Assembly: GCF_011742555.1 (NCBI RefSeq) | Contig: NZ_JAAQQR010000012.1 | Span: forward strand, 1-64,000 | From: Luteibacter jiangsuensis | GTDB lineage: Bacteria; Pseudomonadota; Gammaproteobacteria; Xanthomonadales; Rhodanobacteraceae | DNA: 64,000 bases | Direction of reading: 5' to 3' | Part shown: piece by piece, positions 5,334 through 64,000 of the stretch | Position numbering within the stretch: the first letter of the stretch is position 1 | Layout of the letters: each line of letters starts with the position of its first letter | Notes under the pieces: generated by a model | What the model was told of the DNA's origin: nothing | The model's database searches: none | Seen by the model: only the letters and a program-made list of their open reading frames with translations | Position numbers and translations under genes: made by a program

Positions 5334-7565
5334 GTGAATCGTCCGTCTCCCATTGTCCGTTTGCTCATCGCTTTCGCTTCGTGCGTGCTCGCTGCCACCG
5401 CCGTGGCGCGCACCGAGAATGCGACACCCCGCTACGATGCCGCGCATCGCGTCTTCCGTATCGATGCGGGCGACGTCACTTACGCCATGGGCGTCAACGC
5501 CGACGGCTTTCTGCAAACGCTGTACTGGGGCGCGCGGCTCGCACCGGACGATCCGCTCGGGCCGGCCGTTCCCGCGGCGGAGCGTTCGTCGTTCGACCCG
5601 GCCGGCAGCCTTACGCCGCAGGAATACGCTGGATGGGGCGGCGCGATGACGGCCACGCCCGCCTTGAAGCTGCGCCTGGACGATGGCAACCGCGATGTCG
5701 TGCTGCGCTACGACAGCTATCGCATCGACAAGGGCACGCTTTCGATCCGTCTGCGGGATGCGCAGGCCGGCGTGGCGGTGGACCTGCGCTACACGGCGGA
5801 TGCTGCCACCGGCGTCGTGGGACGTTCGGCTCGGATCGAGAACACGGGGGCCCAGGCGCTCACCATAGATGCCGCCGCGGCTGCCACCTGGAACCTGCCG
5901 CGCGGCGATTACTCCCTTCGCTATCTCACGGGAACGTGGGCCGGCGAGTGGCATCTGCAGACGCGTGCCGTCACGCCGGGCGCCACCGTGCTGGAAAGTC
6001 GCCGTGGCAGCACGGGCGACGAGAACAATCCGTGGTTCGCGATCGGCAGGGGCGACGCCTGGAACGAAGAGCACGGCGACGTGTGGTTCGGCGCCCTCGC
6101 CTGGAGCGGAAGCTGGCGTATCCAGGTCGATGAGGACATCCTCGGCCAGGTTCGCGTGACGGGCGGATATAACCCCTTCGATTTCGCCTATCGGTTACCG
6201 CCCGGGCAGGCGCTGGAGACGCCGGTGTTCTATGCCGGCTATACGGGGCAGGGTATCGGCGCGGCGTCTCGCCTGCTGCATCGCTTCGAGCGGGAACGTG
6301 TGCTGCCCGGCGGCACCGCCGCCAAGCTTCGGCCCGTCTTGTACAACTCATGGGAGGCCACCGAATTCAAGGTGGACGAGGCGGGGCAGGAACGGTTGGC
6401 CGAGAAGGCGGCCGCGCTCGGTGTCGAACGTTTCGTCGTCGACGACGGCTGGTTCGGCGCCCGCGACAACGATCACGCCGGCCTGGGCGACTGGGTGGTG
6501 AACCGGCGCAAGTTCCCCAACGGTCTGAAGCCACTGATCGACAAGGTGCACGGCCTTGGCATGAGTTTCGGTCTATGGGTCGAGCCCGAGATGGTGAATC
6601 CGGATAGCGATCTCTATCGCGCCCATCCGGATTGGGTTCTGCATTTTCCAGGACGCCAGCGTAGCGAGGGGCGCCACCAGCTCGTGCTGAACCTTGCGCG
6701 CGAGGACGTGAAAGCCCACGTGCTGGCCGTGCTCGACGGACTGCTCAAGGACAACGACATCCAGTTCCTCAAATGGGATTACAACCGCAACTGGTCGGAG
6801 CCGGGCTGGCCGCAGATGTCACCGGACGAGCAGCAGAAGGTGTACGTCGCTTACGTGCGCAATCTCTACGACATCCTGCGCGAACTGCGTGCAAGGCATC
6901 CGGGTGTGGAGATCGAATCCTGTTCCGGCGGCGGTGCGCGCGTCGATCTCGGCATCATGGCGCTCACCGACGAAGTGTGGCCATCAGACAACACGGACCC
7001 TTCGGACCGCCTGTCGATCCAGGACGGCTTTTCCTACGCGTATGCACCCGCCACGATGATGGCCTGGGTCACGGGCTCGCCGAACTGGGTGAATGCGCGC
7101 AGCAGCTCGCTGGACTTCCGCTTCCTTTCCGCCATGCAGGGCGGCCTCGGCATCGGTGCGAACCTGCTGGAATGGTCGCCCGCGGAAGAGGCAACGGCGC
7201 GCAACTACGTTGCCGCGTATAAGACGATACGCGCCACGGTGCAGCGCGGTGCGCTCTACCGGCTTCTGTCGCCGCAGGACCGCGCACCCTGGTCCGCCAC
7301 CGAATCGGTCGCCGGCGACGGCAAGCAGGCCGTGCTTTTCGCTTTCCAACGGCAAGGCGAGGAAGCGCGGCCGTTCCCGACGTTGCGCCTGCGCGGCCTG
7401 GATGAGAAGGCGCGCTATCGCTATCGCGTCATCCACGGACAGGTAGCGGCCGGAACGCCCGACGTGGCCAGCGGCGCCTATTGGATGCAGCGTGGCCTCG
7501 ACCTCGTGATGAAGGGCGACCTGCAAGCCGCCGGAGTGATCTTCGAGCGCACCGACGCTCGCTGA
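5334..7565 (+). CDS. exported GH36 alpha-galactosidase
   Basis: The start is GTG 5334, after a GAAGAGGAAGAG ribosome-binding stretch and beyond the stop of the preceding gene. The 743-residue product has a signal peptide ending near VARTEN, placing it in the periplasm. Domain order is the GH36 one: N-terminal beta-supersandwich, (beta/alpha)8 barrel, C-terminal beta domain. Catalytic residues are visible: nucleophile Asp482 in KWDYNRNW and acid/base Asp552 in WPSDNTDP. Other family marks are FVVDDGWFG, WVEPEMVNPDSDLY and ESCSGGGARVDLG. It should remove terminal alpha-1,6-galactose from oligosaccharides such as melibiose or raffinose. It is second in the epimerase-GH36-GH27 operon. Confidence 0.92.
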   Translation: MNRPSPIVRLLIAFASCVLAATAVARTENATPRYDAAHRVFRIDAGDVTYAMGVNADGFLQTLYWGARLAPDDPLGPAVPAAERSSFDPAGSLTPQEYAGWGGAMTATPALKLRLDDGNRDVVLRYDSYRIDKGTLSIRLRDAQAGVAVDLRYTADAATGVVGRSARIENTGAQALTIDAAAAATWNLPRGDYSLRYLTGTWAGEWHLQTRAVTPGATVLESRRGSTGDENNPWFAIGRGDAWNEEHGDVWFGALAWSGSWRIQVDEDILGQVRVTGGYNPFDFAYRLPPGQALETPVFYAGYTGQGIGAASRLLHRFERERVLPGGTAAKLRPVLYNSWEATEFKVDEAGQERLAEKAAALGVERFVVDDGWFGARDNDHAGLGDWVVNRRKFPNGLKPLIDKVHGLGMSFGLWVEPEMVNPDSDLYRAHPDWVLHFPGRQRSEGRHQLVLNLAREDVKAHVLAVLDGLLKDNDIQFLKWDYNRNWSEPGWPQMSPDEQQKVYVAYVRNLYDILRELRARHPGVEIESCSGGGARVDLGIMALTDEVWPSDNTDPSDRLSIQDGFSYAYAPATMMAWVTGSPNWVNARSSSLDFRFLSAMQGGLGIGANLLEWSPAEEATARNYVAAYKTIRATVQRGALYRLLSPQDRAPWSATESVAGDGKQAVLFAFQRQGEEARPFPTLRLRGLDEKARYRYRVIHGQVAAGTPDVASGAYWMQRGLDLVMKGDLQAAGVIFERTDAR

Positions 7566-7661
7566 CGAATCGTGCCCTCTTGGGGCACGCGCATGTCTTC
7601 GTTTCCATGGGTCCATCGATCGGCGCCCGGCATCGGACGCCTCTACCTTCGGAGTCGCGCC

Positions 7662-9884
7662 ATGAACGTTCGCCATGACTTGTCCGTTGTTTCCGCTCCC
7701 TCACCCGCAAAGCGCGCGCCGCTTCCAGCGCGCTCACGTCTGGCCCTGGCTTGCGGGTTGATGCTTCTTGCCTCGACCGGCATGGCGCAGGTGAATGGCG
7801 CCGGCCATGCGCCGTATCTGGGCTGGAGCAGTTTCAGTCAGCAGACGATCGATCCTGGTTTTCTCACCCAGGAAAACATGCGCAGGCAGTCCGATGCATT
7901 GGCGGCGTCAGGCCTTCAGGAGCATGGGTATACCTACATCAATCTCGATTCCGGCTGGCAGGGTGGCTTCGATGCCAATGGACGCCCGACACCGGACCCC
8001 GCCACGTTTCCCGACATCAAGGCGCTGATCGATCACATCCATGACAACGGGCAAAAGGCGGGCATTTACTGGATACCCGGCGTGGAAGAGCCTGCGGTGC
8101 AAGCCAATTCGCCCATTCTCGGCACGGCATTGCATATCCAGGACATCCTGGCGGTGCCGCATCGCGCGGGCAATGCGTTCGGCGGACCCGGCGAGTCGCC
8201 TTACCACTACAAGATCGACTTCAGTAAACCCGGCGCGCAGGAATACATCGATTCCGTCGTGGCATTGTTCGCATCGTGGGGCGTGGATTTCATCAAGCTC
8301 GACGGAGTGACGCCGGGCTCCTATAGCGACGACTTGCGCATCGACAATCGCGACGACGTGGCCGCCTGGTCCAAAGCCATCGCGCGTACCGGCAAACCCA
8401 TCTGGTTGACGGTGTCGTGGGCCGTGGACAAGGACTACCTGAACGTATGGCAGGCATATTCGAACGCGCGTCGCATCGACGACGACGTCGAATGCGAGAG
8501 CCGCTGCGCCACTCTTACGAACTGGCCTCGCATCGAAAAGCGCTTTCGCGATCTGCCGGCCTGGCAAGACGCGGCGGGTCCGACGAAAGGATGGAACGAC
8601 CTCGATTCGCTGGACATCGGCGACGGGGAGGGCGACGGCTTGAGCGTGGACGAAAAGCGTTCGGCGGTCACCCTGTGGGCGATGGCGAACGCGCCGCTCT
8701 ACCTCGGGGGCGACCTCACGCGCCTTGACGACACAGGCAAGCAATTAGCCGGGAACGATGAAGTGATCGCGGTCGATCAGTCCGGCAGGCCTGCGACGCA
8801 GGTCGTGGGTGGCGATTTGCCCGTATGGGTAAGCGATCTCGGCGGCGGTCGCTTCTACGTCGCGATGTTCAACATGAACGCGACCCCGGCAGTCGTCGAG
8901 TTGCCCTGGCGTGTGCTGCGCGTCAACGGTGCCCGCCGCCTCCGCGATCTTTGGCGTCATCGCGAGTTGGGGCCCTCGCTTGGCGCGTATCGGGCGGAGC
9001 TTCCTGGCCATGGCACGCAGCTGCTCCTGGTCGAAGCACTGCCAGGTTCCGTGCCGACGTCGCCCAGCAGCGCGTACGAGGCGGAGCAGGCCTCCCTGTC
9101 CGGAACGGCGGGGGTGGCGTCGTGTGTCGGCTGCTCGGATGGCCTCAAGGTAGGCGGCCTTGGGCTGGGTGCCGACAATGCGGTGGCTTTCGATCGGGTA
9201 TTCGCACCGCGGGACGGCGTCTACTTCATGCAGGTCGATTCGCTTACGTTGGGCCTGCGCTCCTATGTGTACCAGATCAACGATGGACCGCTGCGCACGT
9301 TCAACAGTGGCGGCGGTAGTTTCCAACTGCCATCCAGCAGCAACCTTCCTGTATGCCTGCGCCGGGGGTTCAATCGCATCCGCTTCGGCAATGCGGTGAG
9401 CTATCCACCGGATCTCGATCGCATCGTGGTGCACGGTCGGGGTGATGCGGCACTTCCGGCCGCGGTCACCTACGAGGCGGAGACGGCGACGCTCGGTGGT
9501 GCCGTCACCTCCGGTTTCAGCAATTACTACTCCGGCCTCGCGAAGGCAGGCAACGTCGGCGGCGGCGCCGCCAACAGCGTGACGTTCTCGTCGGTACGCG
9601 TACCTGTTACGGGTAGGTATCAACTGGAGATCGACTACGCCACCAGCGGCCCACGCTCGCTCTTCCTCACCATCAACGGCGGAACGCCGCGCAGGCTCGA
9701 TCTGGACGGAAGCAGTTTCGACGATCCGGTGGCGAAGGTGCTCGAGGTTTCGCTCAAGGCGGGCATGAACACCATCGCACTGGGCAATCCGGATTCGCCT
9801 GCCCCGGACCTGGACCGCATCGTCGTCGCGCCGTTGGTGAAGTACGCGTGGCTCGGTGCGTCGGTGGACGAGTGCCCGCGCTAG
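7662..9884 (+). CDS. exported GH27 alpha-galactosidase with two C-terminal carbohydrate-binding-like modules
   Basis: Starting at ATG 7662 gives 740 residues with an extended signal region ending near STGMAQ. The GH27 barrel shows YLGWSSF, YTYINLDSGWQ, the nucleophile Asp214 in FIKLDGV and the acid/base region RIDDD (Asp273-275). After the barrel and its beta domain come two modules that each begin YEAE (residues 472 and 604) and end with PDLDRIVV, the layout of CBM35/CBM6-type sugar-binding modules. Such modules suggest action on polymers such as galactomannan, complementing the GH36 enzyme. The gap of 96 bases after GH36 and the same orientation suggest co-transcription. Confidence 0.9.
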   Translation: MNVRHDLSVVSAPSPAKRAPLPARSRLALACGLMLLASTGMAQVNGAGHAPYLGWSSFSQQTIDPGFLTQENMRRQSDALAASGLQEHGYTYINLDSGWQGGFDANGRPTPDPATFPDIKALIDHIHDNGQKAGIYWIPGVEEPAVQANSPILGTALHIQDILAVPHRAGNAFGGPGESPYHYKIDFSKPGAQEYIDSVVALFASWGVDFIKLDGVTPGSYSDDLRIDNRDDVAAWSKAIARTGKPIWLTVSWAVDKDYLNVWQAYSNARRIDDDVECESRCATLTNWPRIEKRFRDLPAWQDAAGPTKGWNDLDSLDIGDGEGDGLSVDEKRSAVTLWAMANAPLYLGGDLTRLDDTGKQLAGNDEVIAVDQSGRPATQVVGGDLPVWVSDLGGGRFYVAMFNMNATPAVVELPWRVLRVNGARRLRDLWRHRELGPSLGAYRAELPGHGTQLLLVEALPGSVPTSPSSAYEAEQASLSGTAGVASCVGCSDGLKVGGLGLGADNAVAFDRVFAPRDGVYFMQVDSLTLGLRSYVYQINDGPLRTFNSGGGSFQLPSSSNLPVCLRRGFNRIRFGNAVSYPPDLDRIVVHGRGDAALPAAVTYEAETATLGGAVTSGFSNYYSGLAKAGNVGGGAANSVTFSSVRVPVTGRYQLEIDYATSGPRSLFLTINGGTPRRLDLDGSSFDDPVAKVLEVSLKAGMNTIALGNPDSPAPDLDRIVVAPLVKYAWLGASVDECPR

Positions 9885-60095: not shown

Positions 60096-60803
60096 ATGCA
60101 TTTAAAGCGACTGACCGCTCTCGCGTTAGCCACCTGCTGTATCGCTTCCGTAACACCCGCCATCGCCGATACCGTCTCCGCTCCACAGGCCCTTGACCAG
60201 TCGGCAACGCTGCTCCTCACCGATCTGCCCGTGTTCGCGCCCGCTACGGCGCTGGCTCAGTCCGCCATTCCGGACCTCGCCTCCCTCTCCTCTCCCAAGG
60301 TCGACGAATCCGCCACGGCAGGGGACAACGTCGCCCTGTCCGATGATGGCGACGACGACGGTGACAGCCTCGTTGCCGCGGCTACGGCTCGCCTCGCAGG
60401 CCACGTCGACGGCCACGCCCGCGAGGCGCTCCTCGCCTTCGCCATGAAGCTCCGCGACATCCGTTATCACCGCGGCGGCCGCAAGCCCTCCACCGGTTTC
60501 GACTGCAGCGGCTTCGTTCGCTACGTGTTCCTGCACAGCATCGGCCTCGACCTCCCGACCAATTCGGCCAGTCAGTTCCTTGCCGGCCTGAAGGTCAAGC
60601 GCAGCGAAATGAAGACGGGCGACCTCGTTTTCTTCCGCACCCGTGGCAAGGCCATTTCCCACGTGGGCATCTATATCGACAACGGCCAGTTCATCCATTC
60701 GCCGTCGGCCGGCAAGACCGTCCGCGTCGACAGCCTCAACGAAGCTTACTGGTCCAAGCACTTCGCCGGCGCCAAGCGCCCCGAAGGCATCGCCAAGATC
60801 TGA
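60096..60803 (+). CDS. NlpC/P60-family cell-wall hydrolase
   Basis: A 235-residue exported protein. The signal peptide ends near PAIADTV. A low-complexity region (about 60-100, Asp/Ser/Ala rich) leads to the NlpC/P60 domain. The catalytic set is Cys137 (TGFDCSGFV), His189 (ISHVGIYID) and a third polar residue, most likely His201 (FIHSPS). The LPTNSASQF and KTGDLVFF blocks complete the fold. It should cleave peptidoglycan stem peptides (gamma-D-Glu-diaminopimelate bond), by family knowledge. There is no SH3 or LysM domain. The 255-base upstream gap carries a palindrome. Confidence 0.9.
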   Translation: MHLKRLTALALATCCIASVTPAIADTVSAPQALDQSATLLLTDLPVFAPATALAQSAIPDLASLSSPKVDESATAGDNVALSDDGDDDGDSLVAAATARLAGHVDGHAREALLAFAMKLRDIRYHRGGRKPSTGFDCSGFVRYVFLHSIGLDLPTNSASQFLAGLKVKRSEMKTGDLVFFRTRGKAISHVGIYIDNGQFIHSPSAGKTVRVDSLNEAYWSKHFAGAKRPEGIAKI

Positions 60804-60912: not shown

Positions 60913-62388
60913 TCATTGCGGTCTGTCGGCGGAGACTACCGGCGAAACAAGGAACTGTCCGTCACGCTTCACCCAGTAATAGATCCGATCCGGTGCGCCG
61001 AGCCACGAAGGCGGAATACCTGCATTGAACGCAGCCGTTTTTTTCGGATACGGCGTGTCGTGGGTGCCGGTGCCTTCATAGGCCACCCATATCTGGTCGC
61101 TGCTCAGCATGCCGGGATAACCGATCCTGGCGTAGCTGCGGTCGGCGGCGAGTTCGGGCGGGGGCAAGTCTCCTGCGGCAGCTTCGACGTCGAGAGGCAG
61201 GGCCGGTGAAGTGTGGTTACCGGGTGGGAGCGTGTCGTCGATGACCACGAACGACACATGGACGGGCTGCCCCAACGCGGCGAGGACGTTGCCACGAGGG
61301 ACATGGAACGCCGTGGGGCTATCCGCGACGAGCGGCTGGGCCGGGGTTTCGTAGAGGGACTGCTCGCTCTTCCAGCGGATGCGAGCCGCCACAGGGGGGA
61401 GGGGCACCGCCTGGTCTTCGGGCAGGTAATCGAACCGGGCATCCTCCGCTTCGGTTGTCGGCATCGTCATGCGGATGATCGGCACCCAGCGACCGGCACT
61501 CTGGTAGAAATCGCGCTGGTCCACCTTCGCGTTGGCTGGTCCGTTCGCCGTGCCGGCCTGATAGAAAAATGCCTCGATCGGTATGGTGGTATGGATGTCT
61601 TGCGGCCAGGTGCGAACCAGTAGTTCGTCGGTGTAGCTGCCGGGCTTGTTCGTCTGGAACCTCTCAGGAAGCAGTGCCATCGCCGCGCCCATCTGTCGGA
61701 AAGTCGTAGCGGAATGGGAGGTTCCAATGCGCACGTCGAAGCTGCAGATGTAGCCTCCGCTTCGATAGCGTGCGACCCATGCTTCGCCGGTGGTGATGCC
61801 CTGTTCGGCGCAAGGACGCGTATAGGTGGGATGGGACGCTGGATGGGGACCGCATCCAAGATCGCTGCGGGCATCGGTAGTCGCATCGAGCGGATAGACG
61901 CATACGATTTCCATCGGGTGGTAGCCGTGCTGCTCGGCATCGGCAGAGGGAAGAAAGATGAAACCGCTGGAATACCTGGGCGTATAGATGGTGCGAAACT
62001 TGGCGTCCTGCCGCAGCCACGAAAACGATACGGTGCCCTTGCTGCTCGACGGGTTCGGATTCCACGTGTGGTAGGGCCCCGGTACCGTCGCCCTGAAAAG
62101 AACGCCGGAACAGAGAAACGCGGGACGATCCTCCGCGCCGCAGTCATCCCGTGTGTCGGCATAGCGTTCCGTGAGGTGTCGGGCCACCGCAAGGCCGTCC
62201 ACTCGATCGGACAGCGGCGGTACAACCACCTCGACGTCGGGACGGGCGAGGATGTCCCGGAGATACAGCGTGCCCGAGGACGCCACCGGCACCGAGGGCG
62301 CCTGATCGATAGAGCCCGCATTCGCGCTCAGGTCGACGACGAACAAGGTAGCGGCAAGGAATAACGGCTTGAGTGCACGTGACTTCAT
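60913..62388 (-). CDS. halovibrin-like secreted protein with split repeat domain (copy A)
   Basis: A 491-residue protein with a signal peptide ending at SANAGS. Residues about 65-315 match the halovibrin (HvnA/HvnC) type of secreted protein from Vibrio and Pseudomonas, described as NAD-acting enzymes: HLTERYADT, DDCGAEDRPAFLCSGVLFRAT, TVSFSWLRQDAKF, GITTGEAWVARYRSGGYICSFDV and IPIEAFFY. Residues 26-65 (SIDQAPSVPVASSGTL...) are instead similar to a piece found after the halovibrin domain in the neighbouring copy. Residues 334-405 are the other half of that repeat domain. Residues 408-485 are a block almost the same in both copies. NAD hydrolysis is inferred only from the family. The final tag is at 60913. 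Confidence 0.65.
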   Translation of the reverse strand: MKSRALKPLFLAATLFVVDLSANAGSIDQAPSVPVASSGTLYLRDILARPDVEVVVPPLSDRVDGLAVARHLTERYADTRDDCGAEDRPAFLCSGVLFRATVPGPYHTWNPNPSSSKGTVSFSWLRQDAKFRTIYTPRYSSGFIFLPSADAEQHGYHPMEIVCVYPLDATTDARSDLGCGPHPASHPTYTRPCAEQGITTGEAWVARYRSGGYICSFDVRIGTSHSATTFRQMGAAMALLPERFQTNKPGSYTDELLVRTWPQDIHTTIPIEAFFYQAGTANGPANAKVDQRDFYQSAGRWVPIIRMTMPTTEAEDARFDYLPEDQAVPLPPVAARIRWKSEQSLYETPAQPLVADSPTAFHVPRGNVLAALGQPVHVSFVVIDDTLPPGNHTSPALPLDVEAAAGDLPPPELAADRSYARIGYPGMLSSDQIWVAYEGTGTHDTPYPKKTAAFNAGIPPSWLGAPDRIYYWVKRDGQFLVSPVVSADRPQ

Positions 62389-62427
62389 GTCGTTTCGCTC
62401 CGTGTTTGCCCGCGTTCTGCTTGCCCG

Positions 62428-64000
62428 TCATTTCCCAAAGGCCATGTGATTGACCGGGAAGCGCAAGGCACGCGTTTCGTCGGCGAGTTTCTCGAAGCCG
62501 ACCTTCAGCTCGACCGTGAGTGGCGATCGGTCTGCCAGGGCATCGAGCTGAGCGAGCGGCACGGGCCGGATCAGGCCATTGGTGAGGTCGGCGGCGACGG
62601 TGGCTTCATTGCTGGCCAGGCCGATGACCGCTTCGCTGCCGTCGGGCTTGCGGCCGTGCACGCGAAGCCAGACGCGTTGGCCGAGGGCCATGCCGGGCCA
62701 CGGCGCGACGCGAACCTGCGCTGTGCCGGTAAAGGCGGAGCGTGAGAGCAACCCGTCGACAGGAAGGGCGGCGCCGTCGGCCTGCGCGTCGACAACCTGC
62801 GGTAGCGGCTTGGTCACGATCGGCCCGGGTGCGTTGCGCAAGGTCAGCCGGGTCACCGGGAAGGCACGGGCCTGGGCGAGATCGCTGCCGGCGAGCGCGC
62901 GCAGGAAGACGGCACTGCCGTCGGGCAGGCGACGCAGCCAGTCGCGGGACACGGTGGCGTGTAGGCCTTGCTCGACCATCGCATCGTCGACGATGGCGCC
63001 GTCGATCAGGCGTGCACGTTGCTCGGTGCCGTCGGGGAAGTAAGCCAAGGCATCCAGCCATACCGACTGCCCCGTGGCGATGCCGTCCCAGGGCGCCACG
63101 GTGACCGCCGGATCGCTGGTGAGCGCGGCAAAGTCGAGCCAGCCGTTCGCGGCGTCGCGCACGATCGGCCAGGGTGCATGGGTAGGCGACAGCACGGGCG
63201 AGACGAGGAGCTGGGTGCCGCGTTTGACCCAGTAGTAAACCTGGTCGGGTGCACCCAGCCAGGAGGGAAGAAGCCCGGCGTTGAAGGCGGCGGTCTTCCT
63301 GGGGTACGGCGTGTCGTTGACACTCCTGCCTTCGTAGCTCACCCAGATCTGGTCGGTACTGAGCATGCCGGGATAGTCGATCCTGGCGTAGCTGCGGTCG
63401 GCGGCGAGTTCGGCCGGCGGCAAGGTGCCATCGGCGGCACCGACCGCGATGGTGAGTACGCGCGAGGTGCGCTCCTCCGCCAGGGTCTTGTCGGTCGCGA
63501 CGAAGGACACGTCGACGGATTGGCCAAGGGTGGCGAGCACGCTGCCGCGGGGAATCGAGAATACGGTCGGCGTATCGGCGGCGAGGGGTCTTGCCGGGGT
63601 TTCGTAGTAAGCCCGCGTTCCCACCCAGCGCACGCGACCGGTCGATCCGGCGGGAAGGCCGGACTGAGCGGGCACGCTTACCTCGATGTCCTTGCGGGTA
63701 AGGATGTCCTGCGCACTCAGTGTCCCCGTCGGTGCCTGCACCACAGAAGGCGATTGATCGAGACTCGCCGGAAGGGTGGGCAAGGCGATGGCCTGGTCGG
63801 CGGGGGTGTAGGCAAAGGACGATTTGCCGCCGAGGGTGGTGGGCAGAGTGATCTTGATAACGGGTACGGCGACGCCGCTCGTATTGAGTAGATCGCGCTG
63901 GTTGCGCTGCGCGCCGGCGAGACCCGACTGGCCGGAGATCACGACATAGAAAAAGGCCTCGATGGGAAGGCTCGCGCCGACGTTCTGCGGCCATGTCGCC
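62428..64000 (-). CDS. halovibrin-like secreted protein (copy B), N-terminus beyond window
   Basis: Runs off the right edge: codons read continuously from 63999, giving ATWPQNVGASLPIEAFFYVV, which lines up with residues 259-276 of copy A. An ATG or GTG inside (63942) is therefore not the true start. After the halovibrin end comes a complete repeat domain (SLDQSPSVVQAPTGTLSAQD through RVLTIAV), the LPPAELAADRSYARIDYPGM block shared with copy A, and about 230 more residues that copy A lacks. These include two further repeats with motifs VTVAPWDGIATGQSVWLDAL and VRVAPWPGMALGQRVWLRVHG, then VELKVGFEKLADET. The gap to copy A is 39 bases, so the genes form one unit. Confidence 0.65.
   Translation of the reverse strand, partial: ATWPQNVGASLPIEAFFYVVISGQSGLAGAQRNQRDLLNTSGVAVPVIKITLPTTLGGKSSFAYTPADQAIALPTLPASLDQSPSVVQAPTGTLSAQDILTRKDIEVSVPAQSGLPAGSTGRVRWVGTRAYYETPARPLAADTPTVFSIPRGSVLATLGQSVDVSFVATDKTLAEERTSRVLTIAVGAADGTLPPAELAADRSYARIDYPGMLSTDQIWVSYEGRSVNDTPYPRKTAAFNAGLLPSWLGAPDQVYYWVKRGTQLLVSPVLSPTHAPWPIVRDAANGWLDFAALTSDPAVTVAPWDGIATGQSVWLDALAYFPDGTEQRARLIDGAIVDDAMVEQGLHATVSRDWLRRLPDGSAVFLRALAGSDLAQARAFPVTRLTLRNAPGPIVTKPLPQVVDAQADGAALPVDGLLSRSAFTGTAQVRVAPWPGMALGQRVWLRVHGRKPDGSEAVIGLASNEATVAADLTNGLIRPVPLAQLDALADRSPLTVELKVGFEKLADETRALRFPVNHMAFGK

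Follow-up and report, generated by a model that had tools for sequence, protein, structure and literature searches.

Immunoglobulin-like (Ig-like) domains that are split by a guest domain are known from the RTX adhesins FrhA (Vibrio cholerae) and MpIBP (M. primoryensis), where, in the published view, the split brings both ends of the guest to the same side, facing away from its binding pocket (PMC10865825). Here we describe a related arrangement in Luteibacter jiangsuensis, at the right end of a 64,000-nucleotide window (the whole stretch of DNA analysed, positions 1 to 64,000 of contig NZ_JAAQQR010000012.1). Two tandem minus-strand genes, copy A and copy B, each encode a halovibrin-like catalytic domain and a repeat domain; in copy A, the catalytic domain stands between two pieces of a probable Ig-like domain. 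An earlier sequence-only reading of the window had proposed such an insertion, or a permutation, and knew of no described case. Ig-like domains split by a guest have been described before; the new features here are that the guest is probably an enzyme, the lineage in which it occurs, and an unsplit copy next door.

The guests of the RTX adhesins are ligand-binding domains (sugar-binding, PA14, or peptide-binding) within very long proteins, whereas copy A has an enzyme domain in a chain of 491 residues and, unlike the adhesins, an unsplit counterpart in the neighbouring gene. The lipin/Pah phosphatidic acid phosphatases resemble copy A in forming an Ig-like domain from the N- and C-terminal regions of an enzyme, and these regions lie 250 to 500 residues apart in the yeast and human proteins (PMC7066176). 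Compared by description, lipins have a variable linker between the halves and a catalytic domain formed by the C-terminal region, whereas the insert in copy A is the catalytic domain itself. A third comparison involves isopeptide domains, which are Ig-like. In the bacterial surface protein Cpa, an isopeptide domain hosts the thioester domain as an insert, and thioester domains of class II are interrupted by an Ig-type domain; like copy A, Cpa has a reactive domain nested with another (PMC6194298). Again by description, Cpa belongs to the Gram-positive adhesins with covalent cross-links, unlike copy A.

Halovibrins HvnA and HvnB of Vibrio fischeri and HvnA (PA1914) of Pseudomonas aeruginosa have the same catalytic domain family as copy A; the V. 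fischeri proteins are NAD glycohydrolases, as cited in PMC3510237, and the same paper gives PA1914 an extra C-terminal domain, DUF2599. Copy A has no Pfam match at E up to 1, and so no match to DUF2599. Our literature search, which had most subscription journals outside its scope, found no halovibrin with a split accessory domain.

Two pieces of one domain flank the enzyme of copy A

Copy A (60913-62388, minus strand, 491 residues) reads, in order, putative signal peptide, 40-residue segment, catalytic domain, and remainder of the repeat domain. The segment (residues 26-65) is identical at 21 of 40 positions, ungapped, to the SLDQ segment which follows the catalytic domain of copy B. The local alignment scored 92, whereas the best of 2000 shuffled versions of the segment reached 53 over the full length of B, and a family search within the genome itself matched it with E = 1.4e-4 at 51% identity. 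Behind the enzyme, the C-terminal part of copy A (334-487) is 66% identical to copy B, with 38 of 69 residues shared in the rest of domain 1 (IgC) and 62 of 80 in the second domain of the module (Ig2).

Where the 40-residue piece should follow the enzyme, copy A runs directly from VPLPPVAA into RIRW, and copy B reads ALPTLPA-SLDQ...PAG-STG-RVRW. The sequence-only reading had noticed both the match and the gap, and both hold; a small correction concerns B, where the rest of the domain, from RVRW, follows the piece not at once but after three residues (STG). The other junction of copy A is VDG-LAVARHLTERY, for which a homologue in genome G021 has PDG-PTVARHLTERY. Both junctions are in frame.

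A "split domain" in this context is one whose two complementary pieces flank a guest domain, and this is what copy A has. Against a hidden Markov model of the module, it matches at model positions 1-36 before the enzyme and 42-186 after it, and copy B matches at 1-187 in one piece spanning domains 1 and 2. The same split came from profiles built on an alignment that excludes copy A (A4: 19 of 22 module fragments, omitting an identical second copy from L083, a near-identical one from L092, and L099, whose first part has diverged). In a MAFFT alignment of copy A and 19 unsplit modules, the first part of every module fell on the N-terminus of copy A (29 columns) and the rest on its C-terminus; P31 and D45 are invariant in an alignment of the same rows (A5). 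A further alignment, A2, in which Ig-like modules were mixed with many catalytic rows, was discarded, as MAFFT had aligned the modules with the catalytic domain. In copy A, the two halves are still in their original order, with the first part of domain 1 (IgN) before the enzyme and IgC after it. Copy A is therefore a domain insertion, as the first of the two earlier proposals had it, and not a circular permutation.

Copy B has 751 residues, starting outside the window at contig position 64683 and stopping at 62428 on the minus strand. Its N-terminus was taken from the same contig beyond 64000 (contig and window agree where they overlap); it looks signal-like by eye and leads straight into the catalytic domain, without an SIDQ-type segment. 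The catalytic domain is followed by the whole repeat domain in one piece, and copies in genome G014 have the same order of parts as the C-terminal region of B.

Table 1. Parts of copies A and B within the window
Feature	Coordinates	Strand	Remarks
Copy A, residues 1-25	62314..62388	-	Signal peptide by eye; probable cut after ANA, giving mature start GSIDQ
Copy A, residues 26-65	62194..62313	-	IgN, first part of Ig-like domain 1, before the enzyme
Copy A, residues 66-335	61384..62193	-	Halovibrin-like catalytic domain and short linkers
Copy A, residues 336-405	61174..61383	-	IgC, rest of Ig-like domain 1
Copy A, residues 406-491 and stop	60913..61173	-	Ig2, the module's second domain
Copy B, C-terminal end of catalytic domain and linker	63766..64000	-	Domain runs on beyond the window
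Copy B, Ig-like domain 1, complete and unbroken	63430..63765	-	IgN 63646-63765, then STG, then IgC
Copy B, Ig2 and further C-terminal part	62428..63429	-	From translation; the extra part looks by eye like more repeats of the same kind

Two neighbouring genes were also noted. An NlpC/P60-like gene, named by eye from its sequence, lies tail to tail with copy A (60096-60803, plus strand). Directly upstream of copy B, beyond the window, is a 557-residue frame (contig C3 64726-66399, minus strand) that by eye holds Ig-like repeats only, the first of them close to the N-terminus.

The module and the rarity of its split

In two paralogues from the same genome (contig C15) and in homologues from genomes G005, G014, and G015, a module of approximately 200 residues follows the enzyme. 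These modules begin with the equivalent of the copy A segment, and one paralogue has the module twice. Module matches were found in 25 open frames among the named-genome loci and the window, 13 with and 12 without an enzyme match. In 21 of the 25, the match is full-length, starting at model positions 1-4, and 11 of these 21 have no enzyme match. Two of the 11, in L096 and L133, are truncated where the locus ends, and so is a frame in L083; in its genome, the L096 frame (7430-8146) extends to 818 residues. The remaining four comprise the split match of copy A, two frames in L132, and one in L099; the L099 frame is also listed as L209, and its module reads as contiguous although the first part has diverged. 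Some frames of 218-235 residues in the P. gingeri genus hold little besides the module (L174, L187, L190, L191, and L197), and domain 1 alone recurs in long repeat proteins, at approximately model positions 3-122. Because full-length matches occur without an enzyme and domain 1 recurs alone, sequence comparison identifies the segment as IgN, the opening part of domain 1 in an autonomous module; it belongs to the module rather than the enzyme. As a separate observation, Ig-like matches in L132 start at model positions 26-33 in several places.

The module is probably Ig-like. Pfam gave sub-threshold matches to Filamin (1e-3) and Big_3_5 (3e-3) in one paralogue among the 10 proteins scanned, and a sub-threshold Big_3_5 match in 1 of 51 alignment rows; the structural model described below, which is rich in strands, points the same way. 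A sequence search of solved structures returned only non-significant matches to carbohydrate-binding modules and, when A4 was used, these lay outside domain 1.

If an SIDQ-type segment also preceded the enzyme in copy B and in most homologues, it would be a normal N-terminal repeat, an outcome that the sequence-only reading had itself raised. Copy B has no such segment, and homologues were surveyed using 165 pre-catalytic regions. A region qualified if more than 25 residues preceded a catalytic match with E < 1e-10 beginning at model position 14 or earlier; the set is free of exact duplicates but still includes close relatives and frames truncated by the end of a locus. An IgN profile (19 rows, without copy A) gave any score at all in 101 of the 165; copy A scored 23.5 bits, and none of the other 164 exceeded 4.0 bits. 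Copy A is thus the only case of IgN before the enzyme among these regions.

Other splits were sought among modules whose match starts late. With a threshold of 1e-20, 36 of 298 genomes in the P. gingeri genus have module matches, at no fewer than 60 places when up to 10 candidates were scored in each genome, and five of 60 such places start after model position 5. The sequence or match was inspected for four of these five (L209-L212; L213 was left out), and none qualified: L209, L210, and L211 are contiguous with a diverged first part, and L212 has an adjacent IgN match. In L211 (975-2942), Ig-like repeats instead stand before, not after, the catalytic domain.

The catalytic family is itself patchy, with matches in 15 of 23 genomes of the genus and 16 of 233 of the family; in a sample of the class, 1 of 369 genomes had a match, namely this one. 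Several unusual layouts of the enzyme were also seen. Frames in L154 and L155 (Pseudomonas) and L082 (Pandoraea) have two catalytic domains in one chain, and L132 (3931-6042, Pseudomonas viridiflava) has, after Ig-like repeats, a halovibrin-like domain that matches in two pieces with approximately 50 residues between them. One genome of the genus has nine halovibrin-like matches in a row (G004:C20:233172-241149).

Mixed ancestry of copy A

Residues 54-327 of copy A are 36% identical to Aliivibrio fischeri locus L120 (E 2e-46), which places the domain among the halovibrin-like proteins by similarity; L120 is probably hvnA or hvnB. No Pfam or NCBIfam model matched the catalytic domain. Going by its signal-like N-terminus, copy A is probably secreted, and its family membership suggests that it may hydrolyse NAD. 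Glu255 is invariant in 11 family members (copy A 255-272, window 61573-61626), and the Glu of the PIEAFFY motif (272) gives way to His, Gln, or Ala in some members, a difference relevant to the question of which Glu is catalytic.

The enzyme and the rest of copy A have different relatives. In a tree of 52 of the 142 distinct catalytic domains, that of copy A is sister to a catalytic-only protein in G021, to which it is 66% identical, and that of copy B is sister to the G014-type proteins which share B's architecture (support 100/99 in both cases). The best other match of the copy A catalytic part in its own genome is approximately 44% identical. At the gene's start, from the ribosome-binding site into the signal peptide, copies A and B align without gaps over 68 nucleotides, with a score of 44 against a maximum of 33 from 1000 base shuffles. 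Judged from sequence, then, copy A is a chimaera, with a B-like start region and module and a catalytic domain from another subfamily than B's.

The simplest reading is that, in a B-type tandem copy, the original catalytic domain was lost and a different one was inserted between IgN and IgC, although events in a different order would also fit. Copy A would have arisen beside copy B, and the nearest relatives found for the inserted enzyme have no such module. When 16 kb around the G021 homologue was compared with contig positions 50001-72000, only the catalytic gene matched.

Fate of the moved segment

Our overall reading is that an enzyme was inserted into Ig-like domain 1 of a chimaera that arose beside copy B, and that the moved segment most likely still pairs with the C-terminal remainder; we give this a probability of roughly two in three. 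The mature N-terminus would supply the first strands of domain 1, and the chain would then make the whole enzyme before returning to finish the domain. A single Ig-like domain built from both chain ends would hold the enzyme by its two ends, beside Ig2, with the enzyme pointing away from the following domain.

The core pattern of the segment is kept: at the hydrophobic columns of IgN, copy A keeps 10 of 10 and copy B 9. Compared with the G014 outgroup, the segment is identical at 18 of 40 positions, and the in-place segment of B at 15 of 40. Between copies A and B, nonsynonymous and synonymous substitutions per site (dN/dS) were 0.43/1.12 for IgN, 0.36/1.30 for IgC, and 0.13/1.47 for Ig2, with the limits that dS is near saturation and that constraint from before a late move would also count. 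All hydrophobic columns are kept and dN is below dS, so the segment probably still completes the Ig-like domain.

Several points weigh against this. The split arrangement occurs in one genome only and hence offers no evidence of conservation across species, and the Ig-like label rests on Pfam matches below threshold. The MAFFT placement described above broke down, from 29 columns to 5-9, once two catalytic rows were added. Copy A matches 8 and copy B 9 of the 11 conserved IgN columns; copy A differs at 47 and 59, as B does, and at 61, where B does not, and both 59 and 61 lie at the cut. A co-variation analysis of 86 modules cuts both ways: the top 200 pairs favour IgN-IgC (21 pairs) over IgN-Ig2 (1 pair, with 33 expected), which speaks for pairing within domain 1, but the 21 are fewer than the 34 expected from pair numbers, because within-region pairs dominate.

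Structure prediction adds to this side. AlphaFold2, run with a 51-row alignment (A3: copy A, the window part of B, nine full-length proteins, and 40 of 92 catalytic fragments), gave a mean predicted local distance difference test score (pLDDT) of 81.1 and a predicted template modelling score of 0.71. Most of the enzyme exceeds 90, and the C-terminal module is fairly well folded, with strands at 333-340, 345-347, 351-353, 375-383, and 397-400 and a helix at 365-370. Residues 1-60, however, are below 50, with no strands and one short helix (43-47). By pLDDT and strands, the model shows no sign of the docking of residues 26-65 that the sequence-only reading had envisaged, nor any sign that they form an independent unit, which it had named as a contrary outcome. 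The result for the N-terminus is weak because A3 had no homologous rows for the segment, which relatives carry elsewhere in the chain.

The same model is an argument for the segment being a leftover, i.e., copy A having lost the first half of an Ig-like domain, with the segment now an unstructured linker and the remainder folding alone or unstable. Residues 331-410 reach ten-residue pLDDT means of 72-90 without the N-terminal segment, residues 1-60 are not confidently modelled, and the arrangement was found only once. We nevertheless consider a leftover unlikely: such a segment has kept every hydrophobic column and a profile score of 23.5 bits, and it is no more diverged from the outgroup than B's, with dN below dS, although constraint from before the move would look alike.

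Less likely still is pairing in trans, in which the segment would complete the remainder of another copy A or of a neighbouring Ig-like protein in a strand-swapped assembly. Copy A has both free N-terminal strands and a matching incomplete domain, the frame just upstream of copy B looks like Ig-like repeats, and pairing in trans has been discussed as possible for lipins (PMC7066176), but no observation calls for a partner. It is very improbable that pieces of the similar tandem genes were joined by an error of sequencing or assembly. The genome is a draft of 20 contigs and the similar genes adjoin, but the junctions are in frame, the catalytic part has no closer match in the genome than the one at approximately 44% identity, and the three module parts of copy A differ from B in DNA with dS >1, so none of them simply duplicates B. 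The alternative in the sequence-only reading, a circular permutation of an enzyme-module protein, is excluded by the order of the parts, as a permutant would read IgC-enzyme-IgN or module-enzyme.

On the insertion reading, a broader picture can be drawn, for which we see about an even chance: one lineage would have captured an enzyme in a split Ig-like domain and kept the unsplit parent type in tandem, as a before-and-after pair, and the two chain ends would clasp the enzyme, setting its orientation and possibly also its activity. Usually, only the end result of a domain insertion can be observed. Here, the contiguous form, the split form, and module-less relatives of the enzyme can all be compared, the first two as neighbouring genes, and the steps and structural cost of splitting an Ig-like domain are therefore open to study. 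If the halves co-fold, split Ig-like domains would extend from ligand-binding guests to a probable secreted enzyme.

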